Position numbers and translations under genes: made by a program. From Crossaster papposus (lineage: Eukaryota > Echinodermata > Asteroidea > Velatida > Solasteridae), in the NCBI GenBank assembly GCA_037893245.1, contig JBAIAA010000103.1, positions 186,001 through 250,000 on the forward strand: 64,000 nt of DNA, given 5' to 3'. Shown here piece after piece: positions 4,659-53,012 of this stretch. Positions within the stretch are counted from its first letter, which is position 1. Each line of letters starts with the position of its first letter. The notes below the pieces were generated by a model. The model was not told the DNA's origin, did not search any database, and worked only from the letters and a program-made list of their open reading frames with translations.

Positions 4659-5822
4659 TAGATATTCAAAGAAGATTTTCAAAAAAAAAGAGATCTGAAA
4701 TTGGCTATGTCATAAAGTTGATTGTCTTGAATTGCATCCTTGTCCCCCTACAAATATCGTCCGTCTGTTTTTTCCCGTTTTCGTAGGTATTGGTCGCAAC
4801 ATGTGCAATTTTGTTTTAAAGACACGAGCGCCCTCTTTTGATGGAAAATAGAAAGTGGCAGGCTTAAATTGAGTGCAGAATTTTTTTTTTTATTTATTAA
4901 AAGCAACAATTTTTGTTGCACTGTCATCATTTGATTTTTGCCTGCCACACATCACAGTGACATCAGTAGAGGGCGATCGTATTGATCAAGGATGACATTA
5001 TGTACATATTGTTTGTATAATAGCTAATGTCTGACCGATTTTGTCTGTATTACCTGTAAGTGTATAAATACACCAGTTGGTTATTGTCCACATTCCCGTT
5101 AATCGTCTGCAGTCTATGTACATGTACCATATTGGGCCTGATCATGCCCTCAACAGTTTGTGGTTAAAAAGTGTGCGCTGGTGCAATATAAGGTCTAATG
5201 TCTGATTGTTTCACTGCCAGCAAGATATTGCATGCTTTCAGCACACAATCACGGTGTTAAGCCGTGTCCAAATTGACCTTTTCAAGTAAAACTCGCAGAG
5301 ATTATAGTTGAAGACGCAGGCTCGTAAAACAAGAGAGCAAGATTTTCAATAGCACCCTCTGTAGCTCGCAATGGGAAATGCAAATTGTTAATGTTGTTAT
5401 GCTGTTCTGTGAAGATTAGTTACACCCTCTGTTGACATGTGCAGCATGTGTGTAGACAAGACAATTTCCACAATGGCTTCTCATGCAGAATCGGAGCTCA
5501 TGCGCCGTATGCTGGTGAACCTGTTGTATCACGCTTGCACGGCACCATTGGGCGTGCAATCAAACTGGACGATGATGCCTAGCGGCGATGTCCACTAAAC
5601 TTTCTGAGATTCTGTTCACAATTATTCAAATATAATTCCACTTCAAGTTTTCATAGTCAAACGTTTTGGTGAAATAAATTTATAGTTTTCACAGTCATGA
5701 CAGTCCATATAAGACTCAATCCGGCTTATTCACGATGTTCACAGAGATTCAGTTTTGTCAATCAACAATCTCAACAGTCAGTTTCACAACAAATTTTGTG
5801 AGAACGATAACTGTTACTTCAT

Positions 5823-5986: not shown

Positions 5987-7072
5987 TAACACAACAGCTC
6001 TTTAACTCTATTCTGAATTATTAGATGGATTCCTAAATTGCTAGTTTGTCGGCTTAGATCGTCCAGTAAAAGACGGTGTACATAAAAACTCAGTTTCATC
6101 ATCTCTTCCACAGATCCCCCCATAATGCTTTGCGGTAGCATGCTTCATATGCAAATCAATATCTACATGTAAGGTCACATGCAAATAAGCAGATACTATG
6201 CAAACTATTTACTGGCAAAATGTTACTTTCAGTTACAATACATTTTGGATTGGCATAAGTTGGATTGGCATAAAGGGCATCGCCATTTTGACAACACTTG
6301 TCTTCATGACAGAAAAGAAATACAAATCTGTCGTCTGAATATTTCTTGTTGTCGTTTTCCTTAACCATCATCTATTTTTGTTTGTTGTTTACTTTCAAAT
6401 CTCCACAACTACATGTCTGTACCAAAATCCTTGCTGCAATCATACGTGATGTATAGTATGCTTGCTTAACAACGACACCACTTGACCCCTATCATTCATG
6501 AACCCTATGTTATTAGATCATTTTGTGTTGACTCACTTTGTTTCATAGTTTTTAGTTATGCATGTGTCCATCCTTATTCTTCATAACTATATTATATTAT
6601 GTTCACTTCGTTACAATTTTGTTTATTATTTCACTTTATATTTATCTTTCTTACATACCTGTAATTCTTTCGATTGAAAAAAAAAACTGGGGAAAAAACC
6701 GGAAATGTTATTTGAAAAAAATAGACTAATCCTATTTCCGCATACAATTTTAAAAAGTGGTTTATGATTCTCACTTTTATCACGATATTCATTTCTCTTT
6801 CTTATAATTTTTTTGTTTCATTCGCTTTCTTTTGTTTAACTGCGATAGATTCAACCTTTTAGTACAGCTTTAATCCTAGAATATGAAATATCTTCTGGCA
6901 TCTGTCAAAGTAAAATAGTAAAGGTTCATGAACTTCAACATTGCTTCATACATAAAGCCACAGATTTTTGATAAAATCTGATAAAGACTTGAATTAGAGT
7001 TAATGTAGAAGTACTACGTTGAAGACCTAATAGCAGAAGACCTAATATGCTTTTTTTTTACATCTGGAACAG

Positions 7073-7198
7073 AGTACGGTCCTGCGCCACCTCAGTGTGC
7101 TTATGGGCTATAATCAGGTGGAGAAGTGCTTCATCCTAGCACCCCAACAGCTAAGAGAGTCAGCAGTGTTCTATGCCTTCATGGCAGGGGCACCAAAG
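7073..7198 (+). CDS. UNC80: UNC80 exon (42 codons)
   Basis: The exon reads STVLRHLSVLMGYNQVEKCF and continues through APQQLRESAVFYAFMAGAPK. It is preceded by a T-rich tract and AG and followed by GTAGCC. Phase 0 at both ends. It is the first exon in the window that I recognise by sequence. Exons upstream are expected but mostly not identified. Confidence 0.8.
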
Positions 7199-10100
7199 GT
7201 AGCCTGGGAGTTTTAGATGCCTTATACTTTTTTTACACTTCCGATGCCAGGTTCATACTCGAAAGCGAACGCAAACAGGAATTTATGTTGTTGGGGTAAT
7301 GTACCGCCCTCTTTCGGTGAGCATTCCTGGGGAATTCCCTTATGTACGCACAATAAACAGCCCACGTGCGTACATGTACGATGTCGGTAGTGGGAAATCT
7401 CCCTTTTCCTGTGTACATGCTCCATACAATGTATATTGTACGTCTGCCAAGGACATGAAAGATGAATTTTCAAGGATGCCCCAGGGTATGTTCGCTATGT
7501 CCAAGTTCGCTTTTTGGAAGAAAAAAAAATAGGAAGAAAACAAAAATCACATAACCTTTGGTTACAATTATGACTTGTGATTATGATTATGAATATGACT
7601 TGAATTGACTTGCAATGACTTGTTATAGCCCATCACAACTCCTCTTATAACCCCCTCCCCCCTTTTGCATCCTACAGATGCTGGACCACAACGTCAAGGT
7701 GGGTAACGTTCTTCTGCCCATGATCATGGAGTTGTTTGCCTACTGTCCCTCACCTCAGAAGTCTCCCCAGGAAATGCAGCCCCATGACTACACCTTGTGG
7801 TTCCTGGAGCCTCACTGTAGACACTCTTGGCTCATGTCTATCCTCATCATACTCTACAAGGTAAGGTCACAGCTCAGGCCCTAGTGGGTTATTTATTCAT
7901 AGCTACCAGGACATGCAGCCCCATGACTACACCCTGTGGTTCCTAGAGCCTCACTGTAGACACTCCTGGCTCATGTCTATTCTCATCATACTCTACAAGG
8001 TAGGGTCATAGCTCAGGCCCTGTTGGGTTATTTATTCATAGCTACCCAGGACATGCAGCCCCATGACTACACCCTGTGGTTCCCGGAGCCTCACTGTAGA
8101 CACTACTGACTCATGTCTATCCTCATCATACTCTACAAGGTAGGGTCTCAGCTCAGGCCCTGGTTGGTTATTTATTCATAGCTACCCAGGACATGCAGCC
8201 CCACGACTACACCCTGTGGTTCCTGGAGCCTCACTGTAGACACTACTGACTCATGTCTATCCTCATCATACTCTACAAGGTAGGGCCACAGCTCAGGCCC
8301 TGGTAGGTTATTTATTCATAGCTGCCCAGGACATGCAGCCACATGACTACACCCTGTGGTTCCTGGAGCCTCACTGTAGACACTACTGACTCATGTCTAT
8401 CCTCATCATACTCTACAAGGTAGGGCCACAGCTCAGGCCCTGGTAGGTTATTTATTCATAGCTGCCCAGGACATGCAGCCACATGACTACACCCTGTGGT
8501 TCCTGGAACCTCATTGTAGACACTCCTGGCTCATGTCTATTCTCATCATACTCTACAAGGTAGGGTCACAGCTCCGGCCCTGGTGGGGTTATTTATTCAT
8601 AGCTACCCAGGACATGCAGCCCCATGACTACACCCTGTGGTTCCTGGAACCTCGCTGCAGACACTCCTGGCTCATGTCTATTCTCATCATACTCTACAAG
8701 GTAGGGTCACAGCTCCGGCCCTGGTGGGGTTATTTATTCATAGCTACCCAGGACATGCAGCCCCATGACTACACCCTGTGGTTCCTGGAACCTCGCTGCA
8801 GACACTCCTGGCTCATGTCTATTCTCATCATACTCATCAACAGTTCGGTTCAGAAGTACAGAATATAATTCCATGTTGTCTGAGATCAGATTGTCCTTGA
8901 CTTGGTTTGTTTCTCATTCCCTTTTTGATTGCTATAACTACATTGGATTACAGTACAACTTTGACCAGCTGGAGCTGAAGGCCGAGATGAAGTCTCTAAT
9001 GCGTATCACCATCAACACCCTGGAGGCCCAGAGGCACCAGTGTAAGCCAAAACGACCCGAGCCTCCTACCCCAGAGGACATCTGGGGAGCAACCACGCCC
9101 CTGGAGAAGAAACGATCAGGTGGGCGTTTTTAAACTTGCTTCCTGGTGCTCGTTTTGGAGTTTGACCCTTTAAATGGCTCTTTATTTGAATGAGACATAG
9201 ACTTAAAGGTGGGATACACCATTGGTAATTGCTTGAAAGATCACGAATAGGTGGATTTTTTTTTTGGGGGGGGGGGGGGTGGTAGTTTAAAGTAAATATC
9301 GTTTAACTAACCAGTCCCAAGTTTTACAATCATAGATGCTTTGTTTTTTTCGCAATCGCCCTCCGGTGATCGTGAATTTAAATTTGTTTTAAAGAATATT
9401 ACAGAATATCTAGTGAAATAATTTTGCTGGATGTCTACAATCGTTATTAAATTTTAAATAAGTAAGATTTTTTTTTATAATTCGATAGTAACAATTTTCG
9501 ATCTATGTAACAAGTGTATCCTACCTTTAAAAGTTAAACTTTTTTCAATGGACAACAAATAATAATTTAAAAAAAAATATATATTTTCTCTCTAAAAAGC
9601 CAAAAAATCAGTGTAGTCCTGTTTTGATTAGCGTTTGCAGGGAGCAATGCACCCCAAACAACAAAGACAACATTTTGAGTTTTCTGTTTCCATAAATTTG
9701 TGCCATACGTGCGCGTCTACATGTTTATAAATTTGGTACCCTGTGGAGACCTGAACACAATGGGGACAATGCAAGTCGAAATATCTTCACTGTGTATATT
9801 TCTATAGATAAATAGGTCTCCATTACTTTTTCACGGAATAGACTCAAGGATTTTACTCAAAAACTAGGGTTAGGGTTTAGGTTAGGGTTAGGGTATAATA
9901 TAGGGAATATTTGGTCCATATTTCAACCCAGTAAATTAACTGTGGTTGAAATAGGAGCATTTTAAAGAAAATTTTTGATAGTCCAAAAATGTTGTACACA
10001 AGAACAAAGATTTCTCCACAGTGATACAAATTTGCAGACTTTTGCACACACACACTTTGTGTCCCTCCACCTAAACTCTCATAAATAGTGACAAATTGCC

Positions 10101-13100
10101 TTCCAACGTTCATGTACCATACATACAGACAGCTCTCCCATCCTCTGAAAGGTTACATTTGTCTGGCATTCACAGAATCCAGTCTGATCCAAGCCATGGG
10201 CGAGGCTGAAGAGCAAGAGAACGGTGAGGAGGTATCGTCCAATGCCTCGGCCGGCCCTTCATCTCCTCTCCTTCCTGTGGCTCCTAGAGAGATCCCTGCT
10301 GGCCTTCATCAGCAGGTGGAATGTGAGCCTGACATGCTGTTTGTCCCGGAGGAAGAGGTAAGCCCTCCCAGTAGGCTCAGGGCAATCAATAGAGGTTTTA
10401 CAATGTGACACAATGTGATACAATGTCAGAGTTGTAACGAGTCACAGATTTTTGTGACTTGAGTCGAATTGAGTCATTTTAAGTAAGTGACTCAAGTCGA
10501 GTCAAGGTATTTGGTCAAGACGTCACGTCAAGACGTCAAGTCATACTCGAGTCGAGTCGCAGTGTATACTCGAGTCGAGTCGCAGTGTATACTCGAGTCG
10601 AGTCGCAGTGTATACTCGAGTCGAGTCGCAGTGTATACTCGAGTCGAGTCGCAGTGTATACTCGAGTCGCAGTGTATACTCGAGTCGAGTCGCAGTGTAT
10701 ACTCGAGTCGAGTCGCAGTGTATACTCGAGTCGAGTCGCAGTGTATACTCGAGTCGAGTCGCAGTGTATACTCGAGTCGTGTCGCAGTGTATACTCGAGT
10801 CGTGTCGCAGTGTATACTCGAGTCGAGTCGCCGTGTATACTCGAGTCGAGTCGCAGTGTATACTCGAGTCGAGTCGCAGTGTATACTCGAGTCGAGTCGC
10901 AGTGTATACTCGAGTCGTGTCGCAGTGTATACTCGAGTCGAGTCGCCGTGTATACTCGAGTCGAGTCGCCGTGTATACTCGAGTCGTGTCGCCGTGTATA
11001 CTCGAGTCGGGTCGCCGTGTATACTCGAGTCGGGTCGCCGTGTATACTCGAGTCGTGTCGCCGTGTATACTCGAGTCGTGTCGCCGTGTATACTCGAGTC
11101 GAGTCGCAGTGTATACTCGAGTCGTGTCGCAGTGTATACTCGAGTCGAGTCGCAGTGTATACTCGAGTCGAGTCGCAGTGTATACTCGTGTCGAGTCGCC
11201 GTGTATACTCGTGTCGAGTCGCCGTGTATACTCGTGTCGAGTCGCCGTGTATACTCGAGTCGAGTCGCAGTGTATACTCGAGTCGTGTCGCAGTGTATAC
11301 TCGAGTCGAGTCGCCGTGTATACTCGTGTCGAGTCGCCGTGTATACTCGAGTCGAGTCGCAGTGTATACTCGAGTCGTGTCGCAGTGTATACTCGAGTCG
11401 AGTCGCAGTGTATACTCGAGTCGAGTCGCAGTGTATACTCGTGTCGAGTCGCCGTGTATACTCGTGTCGAGTCGCCGTGTATACTCGAGTCGAGTCGCCG
11501 TGTATACTCGTGTCGAGTCGCCGTGTATACTCAAGTCGTGTCGCCGTGTATACTCGAGTCGAGTCGCAGTGTATACTCGAGTCGTGTCGCAGTGTATACT
11601 CGAGTCGAGTCGCAGTGTATACTCGAGTCGAGTCGCAGTGTATACTCGTGTCGAGTCGCCGTGTATACTCGTGTCGAGTCGCCGTGTATACCCGAGTCGA
11701 GTCGCAGTGTATACCCGAGTCGAGTCGCAGTGTATACCCGAGTCGAGTCGCAGTGTATACCCGAGTCGAGTCGCAGTGTATACCCGAGTCGAGTCGCAGT
11801 GTATACCCGAGTCGAGTCGCAGTGTATACCCGAGTCGAGTCGCAGTGTATACCCGAGTCGAGTCGCAGTGTATACCCGAGTCGAGTCGCCGTGTATACCC
11901 GAGTCGAGTCGCCGTGTATACCCGAGTCGAGTCGCCGTGTATACCCGAGTCGTGTCGCCGTGTATAGTCGAGTCGAGTCGCCGTGTTTACTCGAGTCGAG
12001 TCGCCGTGTATACTCGAGTCGAGTCGCCGTGTATACTCTAGTCGAGTCGCCGTGTATACTCTAGTCGAGTCGCCGTGTATACTCTAGTCGAGTCGCCGTG
12101 TATACCCGAGTCGAGTCGCCGTGTATACTCGAGTCGAGTCGCCGTGTATACTCGAGTCGTGTCGCCGTGTATACTCGTGTCGAGTCGCCGTGTATACCCG
12201 AGTCGAGTCGCAGTGTATACTCGAGTCGAGTCGCAGTGTATACCCGAGTCGAGTCGCCGTGTATACCCGAGTCGAGTCGCCGTGTATACCCGAGTCGAGT
12301 CGCCGTGTATACCCGAGTCGTGTCGCCGTGTATAGTCGAGTCGAGTCGCCGTGTTTACTCGAGTCGAGTCGCCGTGTATACTCGAGTCGAGTCGCCGTGT
12401 ATACTCTAGTCGAGTCGCCGTGTATACTCTAGTCGAGTCGCCGTGTATACTCTAGTCGAGTCGCCGTGTATACCCGAGTCGAGTCGCCGTGTATACTCGA
12501 GTCGAGTCGCCGTGTATACCCGAGTCGAGTCGCCGTGTATACTCGAGTCGAGTCGCCGTGTATACTCGAGTCGTGTCGCCGTGTATACTCGTGTCGAGTC
12601 GCCGTGTATACCCGAGTCGAGTCGCAGTGTATACTCGAGTCGAGTCGCCGTGTATACTCGAGTCGAGTCGCCGTGTATACTCGAGTCGAGTCGCCGTGTA
12701 TACTCGAGTCGAGTCGCCGTGTATACTCGAGTCGAGTCGCCGTGTATACCCGAGTCGAGTCGCCGTGTATACTCGAGTCGAGTCGCCGTGTATACTCGAG
12801 TCGAGTCGCCGTGTATACCCGAGTCGAGTCGCCGTGTATACCCGAGTCGAGTCGCCGTGTATACCCGAGTCGTGTCGCCGTGTATAGTCGAGTCGAGTCG
12901 CCGTGTTTACTCGAGTCGAGTCGCCGTGTATACTCGAGTCGAGTCGCCGTGTATACTCTAGTCGAGTCGCCGTGTATACTCTAGTCGAGTCGCCGTGTAT
13001 ACTCTAGTCGAGTCGCCGTGTATACCCGAGTCGAGTCGCCGTGTATACTCGAGTCGAGTCGCCGTGTATACTCGAGTCGTGTCGCCGTGTATACTCGTGT

Positions 13101-16100
13101 CGAGTCGCCGTGTATACCCGAGTCGAGTCGCAGTGTATACTCGAGTCGAGTCGCCGTGTATACTCGAGTCGAGTCGCCGTGTATACTCGAGTCGAGTCGC
13201 CGTGTATACTCGAGTCGAGTCGCCGTGTATACTCGAGTCGAGTCGCCGTGTATACCCGAGTCGAGTCGCCGTGTATACTCGAGTCGAGTCGCCGTGTATA
13301 CTCGAGTCGAGTCGCCGTGTATACCCGAGTCGAGTCGCCGTGTATACCCGAGTCGAGTCGCCGTGTATACCCGAGTCGAGTCGCCGTGTATACCCGAGTC
13401 GAGTCGCCGTGTATACTCGAGTCGAGTAAAAGATTTAGCTCAAGTCAAGTTGAGTCACAAATATTTGAGTTAAATAATAAAAAGCACTCTAGGAGCCACA
13501 GGGAGGATTTTTAATAAGAAATCACTTAAAATCAGTGATGAAACCACAAATTATAAAATGTGTTTCAAGGGTAATATTTTGTGCAATACATATAGAACCA
13601 CAAGATGGGAGTCCGTGACATGCTGTATATTTGTATACGATAAGTGCTATATTCACGAAGTGACATAAACAAAAATGTTGCACTATAAATCATGACAAAG
13701 ATTTTCTGCAAAGTTTTGTTTTTATTTTTGGGACTCGAGTGTTATTAGCCTTCATTCGGCTCGAGTCAGGTTGAGTCTTCTGATGAGGGACTCGAATCGA
13801 GTCATAATTTGCCTGCAGTGATTCAAGTCGAATCATTTACTCGTTGTGACTCAAATTGAATCTAATGCGACTCCAGTCAGATGCAATTCATTACAACTCT
13901 GTATTTCCTAGTTGTTTTAAAATCAAGTGGTAATAAGTCAATACATGTATGTTTTTTTGTTCTTTCACTTGAAGGTGACTGCCCTGACTATCAAGAAGTC
14001 CAACCTGAGCTTTGTAGCATCCACCATTGTAGAAGTCGAGGAGGAGAATGAGGAAACCGTAGAAGCACTTGAGCCCCTGAACAAAGTAGAAGCTATCCCT
14101 GCCAAGGCCCTGATGGTCAGCAAAGAAGAAGCGGTCAGCGCTCAAACTGTACCCAGGGTCAGTCCAAACACACAATTGTCTTCAGCCAATATGACAGTCT
14201 AGGCTGGTGTTTATATCTTGTTTCCTTAGCATCAGACGACTAGTGTTGTTTCGTAGGTCTGTCAGCAGGGTGCCGTGTGTCTGGGGGATCCTTCGTGGCC
14301 CGCCTTCCACGGGATTCTCCTGAAAAACTGCCTAGAATCAATCTATCGTTACACTTCTAAAAAATAGTTCTTTCATTCTTTTGAAACGTTCTCATTCTTT
14401 TCTTTTGTGATAATTGTTCCTTCCGACTTCAAGTTTTGATATTCTCTACAGTTCACTTGATTGTTTTTTATTACTACTTATATTGTCTTATATTTGTACA
14501 CATTTCCGCCGTGAATATGGCCACTGATGCCGGCACGGCGTTAAACCCTAAACTCACTCACTCATTCGTAGGTCTGTCCATTTTCGAATAATTTTGTTAT
14601 TCGATTATTCGAAACTGCACTTGACTGAATATTCAAATATTTTATCTCGCTGATCAAGTTATTCACAGGCCAGCTGCAGCTGCCTTTCTCGCTGGTCAAA
14701 AGTAATAAATAAATAATAATAACATACCAAGCACCACCAGATAACATTTTTATTTAAAGGTAGGATACACCATTGGTAATTGCTTAAATTATCATGAATG
14801 GGTGGATTTGGGGGGTTGTATTTTATAGTAAATATCGTTTAACTGACCTGTCTGAAGTTTTACAATCATGGATGCCGAGAAAAGCACGAAAAACAGCGTT
14901 TGCTTTCAACCGGCGCCGAGCAGTTATTCTTATGTTATTTTTGTTTTTTAGCGACAATCACAAATTCGTCCTTATAAAATTCAATTTTTTGAAAAAAATA
15001 CAGGATATGTAGCGCAATCCTTTAGCTGGATGCCTACAATCATTATTTACTATCAAATAAGTAAGATATTTTCTAATAATTCGGTAGTAAAATTGTTCGA
15101 TATCTGCAAATGGTGTATCCTACCTCTAAGTGATGGATATTATGGGCTGCTTTGTCTAGTGACGATGAAGATATCCAAAGATTTTACTACTGAAATATTA
15201 AGAAATATCTTACTTATTTGAAAGTAAATAATGATTCTAAGCATCCAGCAAAATGATTGCGCTAGATATCCAGTAATTGTTCCGAAACATCGAATTTTCG
15301 AATTTTTCGCGATCGGCGAACGGCGATCGTGAAAAAAACAAGAACAGCTTAACCAGTTCGCGCCGGGATTATTTTAACATCACCGAGCCGAGAGGCGGGA
15401 TTATTTTTAACGAAACTCGATCCGAAGCGGGTTCAGGCCGATAGTGCCGGGAAGCACACCCATGCATTTCCGGCCTTGCTCGCTGCTGACAGACATTTCC
15501 GAACTTGAACTTGGCGTGTTTATGCGTCATCTGTTTTGAATTTGGGGAAAAAGTTGCGTTTATACACGTCATCCGGCGCGAACTGGTTAAGAACCACTGC
15601 ACGATGCCGGTTGAAAACAAACGCCATTTTTCTTGCTTTTGTCAGCATCCATGATTGTAAAACTTCGGACAGGTCAGTTGAACAATATTTACTCCCTTTA
15701 AGTAAACGGGTTGCCAATTCAGCACGCTTTTGGACCTGACCTCACAGAAAGAAATGATATTTGGTGTTATGATTAGCCTCGATGAGAAATCCCCAGAACC
15801 TTTTTTTTGGTTGGTATTTGGCTTGTTACTTTGTGAGATACGATTCAGTGAACTTTGGACTAATTAGCATGAATTAGCATGACCTCCAAATGAATTAGCA
15901 TGACCTCCAAATGAATTAGCATGACCTCCAAACTTTAAATACCTATATCTCTTAAAGTATAGCACCTAGAAGGCCAAGGTGTACATCATTTTGAAGCTCT
16001 TTATTTCATAAAATAAAATAGAAAATAGTAGCGTGAAGCATAGAGACAAAGTTCACTGACACCCGTATCTCAAGAAGTGTCTCAAGAAAAAGGCTCTGGG

Positions 16101-22100: not shown

Positions 22101-23347
22101 AAAACTGACAGGAACGGGATTTGAACCTGGCGACCTCCGGAACACCATACCGGTGCTCTACCAACTCTATTTTGCCCTATGTTGGCGGCCTCCCAAATTG
22201 TCAGATGTCATAAGTCATTTTACTAAATGATCCCACAATGTCGCTTCCCAAGTTGTATCGTAAAATCGGGCATGATTCTTGGCCACACAGCATTCTGGTG
22301 TTTATGACTTCTCGAATAAAGATCCTGACAATTTGGGAGGCCGCCAAAAAAAATAGGGCAAGATAGCTTAGTCGGTAGAGCGCCGGTATGGTATTGGGGA
22401 GGTCGCAGTATCAAATCCCACTCCTGCCAGTTTTCTTTGTTCACTTAATAAGTATGCAAATTTACCTAGTCATTTTCCCTTGAGGTATATTGGTATAATA
22501 GAGTTGAAATATGTTAAACCTTTATGAATTTGCAGCGCGAAAACTTGTCCCGATGTGACAAAATTGCAATCGCTTTAGCACCGAGTATTTTTTTCACTTC
22601 AGAAAGAATTTCATATCCAGACATCACATGTTGCTGAGGTCCCAGTTTTTACCATAAAGAATGCTTAAATTTGAGGAGTTGGAGAACACTCTTTAGGAAT
22701 GAAAAAAATTACGTTATAAGTTCCTCATGAATAAGATTAGGTTTGTCCTTGTTATAAGTTATAAGTTTCTCCTTGACAATACTTTTCTGTCAGGGCCCAT
22801 AGGTTTCTCAGATGTCCAGATATGGAATTCTATCCTTTATTTCTATGTGATTTGTTTGCTTCCTGCTCCCAGGGTCTGAATGAGAAGAAGACCCTGCCCT
22901 CGCTGCGTGTTCTGATCGTACTGATGAACCTGGCCGAGTACATGGAAAACCTGCCTCTAGAGGGCAGCACAGCCTGGGGCACCCTCATCCCGCTCTTTGA
23001 GACGTTCTTTAGGAAACTGGTCTTTGCCCTCCCTGAAAACGTGAGTGCCTAAAGGACCTAGTGTCACAGAGCCACTCAGCAAATGGGTGGGGTACTCGGT
23101 CAAAACCAGTCTGGAACCAGTCAGAAAAAGTATACAGTGCATAATTTTTTGGCCAGTAACCAGTTTTGCAGAGGATATAATTCATAAGAAAAATATATTG
23201 TCCACACTTAGCAAGGTTATGGACTTGGTACATTTCAAATCGCTTCTTAAGACTTACTTGATGTCGCAAATTTTCAAGGATTAATTACTTGTTGTTGTCT
23301 ACAGCGCCTTGAGCACCCTGCAGGGTGGATATGTGCGCTTTACAAAT

Positions 23348-38554: not shown

Positions 38555-38829
38555 TTAAAATCTTTACTACAGAAATATTAAGAAATATCTTACTTATTTT
38601 AAAGTAAATAATGATTGTAGGCATCCTGCAAAATGATCACGCTACATATCCCGTAATTGTTCCCTGACGGCAATCACGAAAAAAACAAGAACACCATAAG
38701 AACCACTGCCCAACTACGTACAGTGATGACTTTTCTGGTCTACATGGATAAGACTCGTACCTCTTCTTTGCTCCATTGTCAGATATACAGTCCATCTGAT
38801 GAAAAGGTAGCCGATGAAACCTGGCAAGC

Positions 38830-39768
38830 ATGAACTCTACAGTGAATGAGGCAGTTGAATGGACCACTGAGACATCAGCAGTGGGTTCTACAGATCCACT
38901 CCTTATCATTGGCAGCATTCTCCTGGGTCTGACAATCCTTCTGATCGTGGTTCTCAACCCGCTATGCCTTCTTGTTCTACACCGTGCCACTGACATGCAA
39001 GAGACGACCAAGTTGTTTATGGCTTCGCTCGCTGTTTCTGATCTCTGCACTGGGATATTTGTCGCATGTCCATTGTTGCTAGAGTTGATAAATCATTTCA
39101 AATGGGTGTTGGGAGGTTTTCTTTGTATACTGTTAGGGATCGTGAGCCCAACGTTTTATACTCTCAGTTGCTTGTCCCTCATCCTTTTAACGGTTGATCG
39201 GTATATCGCCATCATATATCCACTGCGTTACACAAGTTTGATGACGTCGAGGGTGGCAAAAGTCATGATTGGTTCTGTGTGGGCGGCAACACTCACAGTG
39301 TATATCATCTGGTTTGGGATCCTGACAAAAAGTCATGTAGATGACGCTGGTGTGTGCAGGTTTCCTTGTAAGATTTGCTTCTTTGCCTTAAACTGCTTAG
39401 TTCCCGTTTTTATCACAATCATTCTGATAGTTTACATTCGCATTCTCAAAGTGGCCAGACGTCAAGCCCGGCGCATCGCTGCTCAAAATCCAGTTAGGAA
39501 CTGTCCGGACGGACAAAACGCTCCGCGGCCAGTCAGCACCAAGTCTGCCACGACTGTGTTCCTGATAACTGGTACAGTGTTCATCTGTTGGACACCTTCC
39601 TTCATTACCATGCTGTTATATGCCATCAAGCCAATTCCAATTAACTGGGTGGCCATGGCACAAATTAGCTTCTTCACCAACTGCTGGCTGAATGGCTTCA
39701 TCTATTACTGGAGGAACAGGGAACTACGCCAAACCCTGCATGGCATGGCATTCTCATGTTGTCACTGA
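38830..39768 (+). CDS. Rhodopsin-class (class A) G-protein-coupled receptor, intronless, copy 1
   Basis: A 312-residue seven-helix receptor, expected in the plasma membrane; ligand unknown. TM1 has N43 in VVLNPLCLLVL; TM2 has the sodium-site aspartate D71 in LAVSDL; C99 precedes TM3, which ends in the G-protein-coupling triad D123-R124-Y125 (DRYIAI); W151 is in TM4; loop 2 has C176, C180 and C183; TM6 has CWTP at 253-256; TM7 has NGFIY at 288-292 instead of the usual NPxxY. Helix 8 and a CC near the C-terminus (possible palmitoylation) follow. The N-terminus carries an N-glycosylation sequon (NST) at 2-4 and no signal peptide. The start is chosen because the same ATG and context (GGCAAGCATGAACTCT) recur in the second copy. 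Family unidentified; an amine- or lineage-specific orphan receptor is possible. Confidence 0.93.
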   Translation: MNSTVNEAVEWTTETSAVGSTDPLLIIGSILLGLTILLIVVLNPLCLLVLHRATDMQETTKLFMASLAVSDLCTGIFVACPLLLELINHFKWVLGGFLCILLGIVSPTFYTLSCLSLILLTVDRYIAIIYPLRYTSLMTSRVAKVMIGSVWAATLTVYIIWFGILTKSHVDDAGVCRFPCKICFFALNCLVPVFITIILIVYIRILKVARRQARRIAAQNPVRNCPDGQNAPRPVSTKSATTVFLITGTVFICWTPSFITMLLYAIKPIPINWVAMAQISFFTNCWLNGFIYYWRNRELRQTLHGMAFSCCH

Positions 39769-45647: not shown

Positions 45648-45692
45648 TTAGAAAAATGGTCTTTGCCCTCCCCCCCTGAAAACGTGAGGGGC
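45648..45692 (+). other. Displaced fragment resembling the 3' end of UNC80 exon 22873-23040
   Basis: TGGTCTTTGCCCTCC, three extra C, then CTGAAAACGTGAG matches the exon end at 23015-23045 including the GTGAG donor. It abuts a GGGGCCGATTTCACG element end at 45690, so an element may have carried or bordered it. Confidence 0.55.
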
Positions 45693-51783: not shown

Positions 51784-52073
51784 CAACAATCTTACTACAG
51801 AAAATTAATATTAAGAAATATCTTACTTATTTTAAAGTAAATAATAATTGTAGGCATCCTGCAAAATGATCACGCTACATGTATATATCCTGTAATTGTT
51901 TCCGAACGACAATCGCGGTAAAAACAAGAACAACATAAGAACCACTACCCGACTACGTACGTACAGTGATGGTTTTTGCCGGTGTACACTAATAAGACTC
52001 ATACCTCTGCTTTACTCCATTGTCAGATATACAGTCCAGCTGATGAAAAGGTAGCCGATAAAACCTGGCAAGC

Positions 52074-53012
52074 ATGAACTCTACAGTGAATGAGGCAGTT
52101 GAATGGACCACTGAGACATCAACAGTGGGTTCTACAGATCCACTCCTTATCATTGGCAGCATTATCCTGGTTCCGACAATCCTTCTGATCATGGTTTTAA
52201 ACCCGCTATGCCTTCTTGTTCTACACCGTGCCACTGACATGCAAGAGACGACCAAGTTGTTTTTGGCTTCGCTCGCTGTTTCTGATATCTGCACTGGGAT
52301 ATTTGTCGCATGTCCATTGTTGCTAGAGTTGATAAATCATTTCAAATGGGTGTTGGGAGGTTTTCTTTGTATAGTGTTAGGGATCGTGGGCCCAACGTTT
52401 TATACTCTCAGTAGCTTGTCCCTCATCCTTTTAACGGTTGATCGGTATATCGCCATCATATATCCACTGCGTTACACAAGTTTGATGACGTCGAGGGTGG
52501 CAAAAGTCATGATTGGTTCTGTGTGGGCGGCAACACTCACAGTGTATATCATCTGGTTTGGGATCCTGACAAAAAGTCATGTAGATGACGCTGGTGGGTG
52601 CCAGTTTCCTTGCGAGTTTTGCATCCTTGCATTCAACTGCGTATCTGGCGTTTCTATCACAATCATCCTGGTAGTTTACATTCGCATTCTCCAAGTGGCC
52701 CGACGTCAAGCGCGGCGCATCGCTGCTCAAAATCCAGTTAGGAACTGTCCGGACGGACAAAACGCTCCGCGGCCAGTCAGCACCAAGTCTGCCACGACTG
52801 TGTTCCTGATAACTGGCACAGTGTTCATCTGTTGGACACCTTCCTTCATTACCATGCTGTTATATGCCATCAAGCTAATTCCAGCTACCTGGGTGTTCTT
52901 GGCACAAATTGGCTTCTTCACCAACTGCTGGCTGAATGGCTTCATCTATTACTGGAGGAATAAGGAACTACGCCAAACCCTGCATGGCATGGTATTCTCA
53001 TGTTGTCACTGA
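52074..53012 (+). CDS. Rhodopsin-class G-protein-coupled receptor, intronless, copy 2
   Basis: A 312-residue paralogue of the gene at 38830-39768, about 90% identical (about 31 differences counted by eye). All class A hallmarks are kept: N43, D71, C99, DRY at 123-125, W151, CWTP and NGFIY. Differences cluster at residues 31-40, at 175-208 (loop 2 and TM5: GVCRFPCKICFF becomes GGCQFPCEFCIL, and P192 becomes G), and at 268-280 (loop 3 and TM7 start). Residues about 116-174 and 209-267 are identical. The open frame and clustering of changes suggest a functional gene with altered ligand pocket rather than a pseudogene; that is inference. Confidence 0.93.
   Translation: MNSTVNEAVEWTTETSTVGSTDPLLIIGSIILVPTILLIMVLNPLCLLVLHRATDMQETTKLFLASLAVSDICTGIFVACPLLLELINHFKWVLGGFLCIVLGIVGPTFYTLSSLSLILLTVDRYIAIIYPLRYTSLMTSRVAKVMIGSVWAATLTVYIIWFGILTKSHVDDAGGCQFPCEFCILAFNCVSGVSITIILVVYIRILQVARRQARRIAAQNPVRNCPDGQNAPRPVSTKSATTVFLITGTVFICWTPSFITMLLYAIKLIPATWVFLAQIGFFTNCWLNGFIYYWRNKELRQTLHGMVFSCCH

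Follow-up and report, generated by a model that had tools for sequence, protein, structure and literature searches.

What becomes of an exon end that has been multiplied, together with its splice donor, inside the intron that follows it? This question is raised by a 64,000-nucleotide stretch of genomic DNA of the sea star Crossaster papposus (contig JBAIAA010000103.1, positions 186,001 to 250,000; hereafter the window, to which coordinates refer unless given as contig positions), where a tandem array of half-exons occupies an intron of a conserved nerve-channel gene. The original prediction held that half of a coding exon plus 46 bp of intron had been amplified to eight copies in UNC80, as either an alternative-exon cassette or an expansion that the splicing machinery must ignore.

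The array lies in UNC79

The gene is UNC79 rather than UNC80. PDB chains of UNC79 match the exon that carries the first copy, joined to the next exon, with E-values of 8e-21 to 1e-20, the two exons being collinear with the protein and leaving no gap between them (Table 1). Twelve joined ORF peptides match UNC79 chains with an E-value of 1e-70, one of these peptides later proving not to belong to UNC79. UNC80 was ruled out as the gene identity, since no UNC80 chain stood among the matches listed in the PDB protein comparisons (5 and 3 sequences). UNC79 belongs, as UNC80 does, to the NALCN channel complex, so the biological setting originally proposed still stands. Because the UNC79 alignment runs without a gap across 7860/8954, the conserved protein is restored when the array is skipped.

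Eleven of the 12 UNC79 query peptides were placed on the contig, those at 5431 and 13975 having no UNC79 alignment of their own. Neighboring located peptides lie 479 to 4856 nt apart (ten gaps, including the array intron and one gap that spans the unlocated peptide), and tandem copies occur only at the 7678 exon among the 11 located exon peptides. A plus-strand ORF at 7203-7532, initially read as UNC79, gave no alignment and lies inside the intron preceding 7678; a Pfam search with three peptides returned no family. The window also holds a 23-bp minisatellite of approximately 126 copies (10543-13427), which lies between UNC79 exons on the 3' side of the array. Two short stretches, at window positions 45648-45688 (41 bp) and contig positions 318543-318578 (36 bp), show 83-85% identity to part of a UNC79 exon, namely that at 22873-23049, far from both. 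Elsewhere in the window, two closely similar uninterrupted ORFs of approximately 316 aa (38818-39765 and 52062-53009) have, by eye, the look of seven-helix receptors.

Table 1. Features of the UNC79 array and of the KIF16B-like loci on the same contig. Every UNC79 copy begins with its exon part.
Feature	Position	Strand	Remarks
UNC79 exon, 183 nt	7678-7860	+	gapless alignment to PDB UNC79 chains; last 90 nt form copy 1
Copy 1	7771-7909	+	exon part 7771-7860, spacer 7861-7909
Intron, 1093 nt	7861-8953	+	houses copies 2-8; UNC79 exons on both sides
Copy 2	7910-8049	+	open 90-nt exon part; GTAGGG donor at 8000
Copy 3	8050-8189	+	TGA in frame; GTAGGG donor at 8140
Copy 4	8190-8329	+	TGA in frame; GTAGGG donor at 8280
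Copy 5	8330-8469	+	TGA in frame; GTAGGG donor at 8420
Copy 6	8470-8610	+	open; spacer 51 nt (period 141); donor at 8560
Copy 7	8611-8751	+	open; spacer 51 nt; donor at 8701
Copy 8	8752-8835	+	ends after 84 nt of exon part, without donor
Next UNC79 exon	8954-9118	+	UNC79 alignment, peptide YNFDQLELK...; 3' edge approximate
KIF16B-like paralogous locus, 2 copies	contig 281392-281587	-	found only through similarity
KIF16B-like paralogous locus, 3 copies	contig 299909-300255	-	array scan
KIF16B-like paralogous locus, 3 copies	contig 310191-310552	-	array scan

Structure of the array

Tandem Repeats Finder delimits the array at 7766-8835, with a period of 140, 7.6 copies, 95% matches and a score of 1835. 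As predicted, eight copies of a half-exon and the start of its intron lie in register, with copy 1 in the exon and six complete copies plus a truncated one in the next intron. The exon part measures 90 nt in copies 1-7, so that inserting such a unit keeps the frame, and 84 nt in copy 8, which runs on into unrelated intron sequence. The splice motifs are also as described: CAG precedes the exon part in all eight copies, and copy 1 has a GTAAGG donor, all six of copies 2-7 have GTAGGG and copy 8 has no donor. The intron share of the unit needed correction, the spacers from donor to CAG measuring, in order, 49, 50, 50, 50, 50, 51 and 51 nt, or approximately 50 nt rather than 46 bp. The TGA expected at one tryptophan in three middle copies was found in copies 3, 4, and 5, where TGG has become TGA and the preceding codon has changed from TCC to TAC (Ser to Tyr); copies 2, 6, and 7 are open.

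Copies differ from one another at no more than 7 of the 90 exon sites and 5 spacer sites, and the sharing of changes is ordered, with blocks of changes common to copies 3-5 and others common to copies 6-8. Copies 7 and 8 are identical across 84 nt and the spacers are identical within the pairs 4/5 and 6/7, which fits stepwise duplication of units. When the 1.02-Gb assembly was searched at the DNA level, by a method that skips very common words, the array turned up in one place only, and a protein search recovered copy 1, the next exon and the seven repeat matches, with nothing further below an E-value of 0.3. An open ORF (8380-8868) reads through copies 6-8, in keeping with their period of 141, and could possibly be due to chance. 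The search for a partner able to pair with the invariant spacer end gave eight matches, seven of them in the array and one a site with three mismatches at 4890; Rfam returned no matches over 6000-10500, and folding the intron as a single RNA gave nothing usable.

Splice sites and reading frame

Splice sites were scored in bits on consensus matrices. On this scale, the copy-1 donor (AAG/GTAAGG) is the strongest at 11.2 bits; those of copies 2-7 score 9.1 bits each, which places them at the 99.3rd percentile, within the top 1%, of the 4071 GT sites in the window. The acceptor at 7678 scores 8.6 bits and that at 8954 only 1.2 bits, and all seven CAG acceptors of copies 2-8 exceed the latter (3.2-6.0 bits). 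The pyrimidine tract in front of the CAG is short, and a second AG, within CATAG, lies seven or eight bases upstream of it; in copy 2, the AG seven bases upstream outscores the CAG (4.6 versus 3.2 bits).

The frame consequences depend on which sites would be used. Prolonging the exon to any of the six later donors brings a TAG after seven extra residues, and inclusion as a cassette leaves the frame open with copy 2, 6, or 7 and closes it with copy 3, 4, or 5. A report on human ultra-short introns (PMC4463651) describes 22 conserved, selected introns of 37-65 nt, nine of which were shown to be spliced out. Spacers of approximately 50 nt fall within that range, so that introns this short are possible but exceptional.

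Substitution pattern among the copies

Changes in the exon parts of copies 2-8 are biased toward synonymous ones: 7 of 11, against 2.8 expected when changes are dealt randomly over sites of the same base (P = 0.006). Variable sites are concentrated at third codon positions (8/30) relative to first and second positions (3/60; P = 0.005), and the spacer, with 7 of its 50 sites variable, shows no significant difference from either class (P = 0.24 and P = 0.18, respectively). When the lineages are split post hoc, the intact copies 2, 6, 7, and 8, to which the change common to copies 5 and 6 was assigned, account for the excess (6/7 synonymous, 1.9 expected, P = 0.0008), with 1/4 synonymous in the stop-bearing copies 3-5 (P = 0.67); the direct contrast between the two sets gives P = 0.09.

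Within the spacer, 1 of 26 columns is variable in the donor and last-20 zones versus 7 of 25 elsewhere (P = 0.024), the result depending on the width chosen for the acceptor zone (P = 0.12, 0.053, and 0.015 at 15, 18, and 23 nt). Tests on the longest invariant run were not significant for the spacer (P = 0.19) or the unit (P = 0.40). Combining exon and spacer, 4 of 86 presumed constrained columns are variable against 15 of 55 free ones (P = 0.0002), with P = 0.00083, 0.00033, 0.00022, and 0.00008 at zone widths of 15, 18, 20, and 23 nt. All these tests have small samples and are partly post hoc, the partitions having been picked with the data in view. Judged by these patterns, the UNC79 copies seem to have been shielded from damage to a somewhat greater degree than would be expected of mere junk sequence. 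The synonymous bias in the exon parts could be explained without use of the extra copies if unequal exchange moved array lineages through the working copy-1 position, where synonymous changes would be gathered; such passage would not explain the acceptor-side bias in the spacer.

A second array on the same contig

Scanning 264 kb of the contig (the window plus twenty 10-kb stretches) yielded 15 merged arrays with a period of at least 45, 7 of which were looked at in detail: the UNC79 array, two KIF16B-like arrays, and those at contig 258.0k, 286.8k, 319.8k, and 340.3k. By eye, the arrays at 286.8k and 319.8k are AT-rich and non-exonic, and those at 258.0k and 340.3k are likewise non-exonic. 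The KIF16B-like array affects a PX exon on the minus strand (PDB 2v14_A, E-value 5e-4) and lies 87-117 kb from the UNC79 array, so boundary-crossing exon-end arrays are present at two genes on this contig. Like the UNC79 array, it repeats an exon end, its donor and approximately 45 nt of intron in tandem and closes with a truncated copy that breaks off within the exon part. In contrast to the UNC79 array, its unit is only 94 nt long (the last 49 exon nt, the donor and 45 nt of intron), its copies number two or three, its extra donors are weak, and its 49-nt exon part is not a multiple of three. The donors score, copy by copy, 10.6, 6.2, and 4.0 bits at the 310-kb locus and 10.6, 6.2, and 6.2 bits at the 300-kb locus; the 281-kb locus has a GTAGAT donor in both copies and hence a weak first copy too. 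Small deletions affect the first copy at two of the three loci. With those two first copies excluded (6 of the 8 copies used), 3 of 8 changes in the extra copies are synonymous against 2.0 expected (P = 0.33), or 4 of 9 against 2.4 when the one usable first copy is added (P = 0.20). By this measure, the KIF16B-like array gives no sign of coding constraint.

In four random stretches of the assembly, no exon array was recognized among the listed units of at least 30 nt; the array in one of them fills its full 10 kb (contig C30, 500001-510000) with a satellite of 199/398-bp period. On another contig, C8, the cytochrome oxidase genes (2872001-2873343 and 5208663-5210009, identified by eye) look bacterial and have long open frames; this contig is probably a bacterium within the assembly, either an associate or a contaminant. 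The mitochondrial contig of the assembly has AAA at conserved asparagines of cox1 and, by eye, places nd4l and cox2 behind cox1, with nd1 on the opposite strand; this genetic code and gene order indicate an echinoderm, probably a sea star.

Fate of the extra copies

We infer that a tandem duplication across the exon boundary has expanded here and that the main mRNA probably joins 7860 to 8954, discarding copies 2-8 as intron. The duplicated stretch would have crossed the 3' boundary of the exon, taking in its last 90 nt, the donor and approximately 46-50 nt of intron, and the tandem duplicate would then have grown by single-unit steps to eight copies. Copies 2-8 would act at most as weak decoy donors or seldom-included exons. 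Skipping is favored by the location of the strongest donor in copy 1, by spacers shorter than any measured UNC79 gap, by TGA in three of the six complete extra copies and by the missing donor of copy 8. It is also favored by the KIF16B-like array, with its weak extra donors and an exon part that is not a multiple of three. Counting against it, an ignored array need not show a synonymous excess, unchanged donors or variation concentrated in the middle of the spacer. That some copies serve as alternative in-frame exons, with copies 2, 6, and 7 spliced from CAG to GTAGGG to add 30 residues that repeat part of UNC79 and copies 3-5 dead, seems unlikely to us. The substitution patterns lend it some support: the synonymous excess sits, in the post hoc split, in the intact lineages, the combined exon and spacer test points the same way, and the KIF16B-like copies lack the exon bias, whereas the UNC79 copies keep their donors and favor synonymous change. 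All six donors are indeed unchanged, the acceptors reach 3.2-6.0 bits and inclusion of an intact copy leaves the frame open. However, copy-to-copy introns would be only 49-51 nt long, with a short pyrimidine tract and an extra CATAG before the CAG, and in copy 2 the upstream AG is the better site. The invariant-run tests, the spacer test with a 15-nt acceptor zone, the comparison of first and second codon positions with the spacer and the test of intact against stop-bearing copies all fall short of significance, the partitions are post hoc and small, and stops occur in half of the complete extra copies. Skipping of the array is better supported than its use as cassette exons. Less probable again is the wider proposal that exon ends with their donors are recurrently amplified in this echinoderm and that the UNC79 products already function, or are on the way to functioning, as in-frame cassette exons, copies 3-5 having been lost to stops.

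The copies might instead act as poison or decoy sites, a later donor or copies 3-5 bringing a stop that lowers the UNC79 level, which we regard as quite improbable. Each of the six later donors does lead to a TAG seven residues past the exon, copies 3-5 carry TGA, and seven good donors stand ahead of one weak acceptor; yet chance alone predicts a TAG at an intron start and stops in a freely drifting repeat, copies 2, 6, and 7 have no stop, and there is no sign of regulation. An assembly artefact, in which a repeat was collapsed or falsely expanded, is highly improbable. Tandem arrays are prone to errors in copy number, but the copies here are distinct from one another, share their changes in order and occupy a single place flanked on both sides by exons of one gene; the exact copy number may still be off. 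The array appears ordinary in origin and is most likely a harmless local expansion left out by splicing.

Relation to known duplications

The copies stand head to tail and include an authentic exon-intron junction, copy 1 being contiguous with the exon at 7678-7860 and copies 2-7 repeating the exon end, donor and intron start, as in tandem genomic duplications that cross a splice boundary. Near-identical units with locally shared changes also give the array the character of a minisatellite, and copy number differs among the KIF16B-like paralogues (2, 3, and 3). Only 90 of the 183 nt are repeated, in place of the whole exon of a tandem duplicated exon substitution, and the repeat acceptor is an exon-derived CAG rather than a copy of the acceptor of the exon at 7678-7860. 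Set against mutually exclusive exons, three extra copies are open (2, 6, and 7), three carry TGA (3, 4, and 5) and copy 8 lacks a donor. Introners, or transposable introns, disperse into other genes, whereas the DNA search of the assembly, which skips very common words, placed this array at one site.

According to PMC4974935, new introns have been described as arising from boundary-crossing tandem duplications, which are also one of the routes proposed for the origin of exons and introns, with few cases of identified source. The case there that is closest in anatomy resembles the UNC79 array in that one splice boundary was crossed, one site was inherited and the other would be cryptic in the exon part. 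It differs in that the acceptor side was duplicated, the donor was cryptic and an intron gain was reported; in UNC79, duplication affects the donor side, the acceptor is the cryptic site, the copies number eight and any splicing of them is putative. Two fission-yeast genes cited there repeat a 24-bp AGGT segment several times in tandem and, like UNC79, carry more than two tandem copies of an exon segment bearing a splice site; their unit is wholly exonic, whereas the UNC79 unit of approximately 140 bp spans the boundary. PMC3443670 reports that latent splice sites in duplicates can add coding sequence, a form of imprecise intron gain; the UNC79 duplicate likewise could add coding sequence, although it forms an array rather than a pair. 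Of the 12 gene families for which PMC9741552 gives tandem duplicated exon substitutions, across human, fly, and worm, 6 are ion transporters. The mutually exclusive exons described there share with UNC79 in-phase tandem coding copies in a channel-related gene and differ from its half-exons, their 50-nt spacing and the stops in three of the six complete extra copies. A literature search on UNC79 exons and splicing turned up no report of the array in the titles and opening abstract lines of the papers listed, and the extract of a Drosophila UNC79 paper mentions no such array; a search on repeats at exon-intron boundaries found nothing, and one on sea-star tandem repeats found a single paper, on sea bass.

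If some copies were used after all, the locus would capture a boundary-crossing duplication on its way to becoming a ladder of insertions in the NALCN complex, each optional and 30 residues long. With the skipped array that we favor, the eight copies at a conserved nerve-channel gene, together with the second array and its weak donors, form a natural series of open, stopped and truncated units that lets donor competition and the fate of duplicated half-exons be studied by RNA sequencing.
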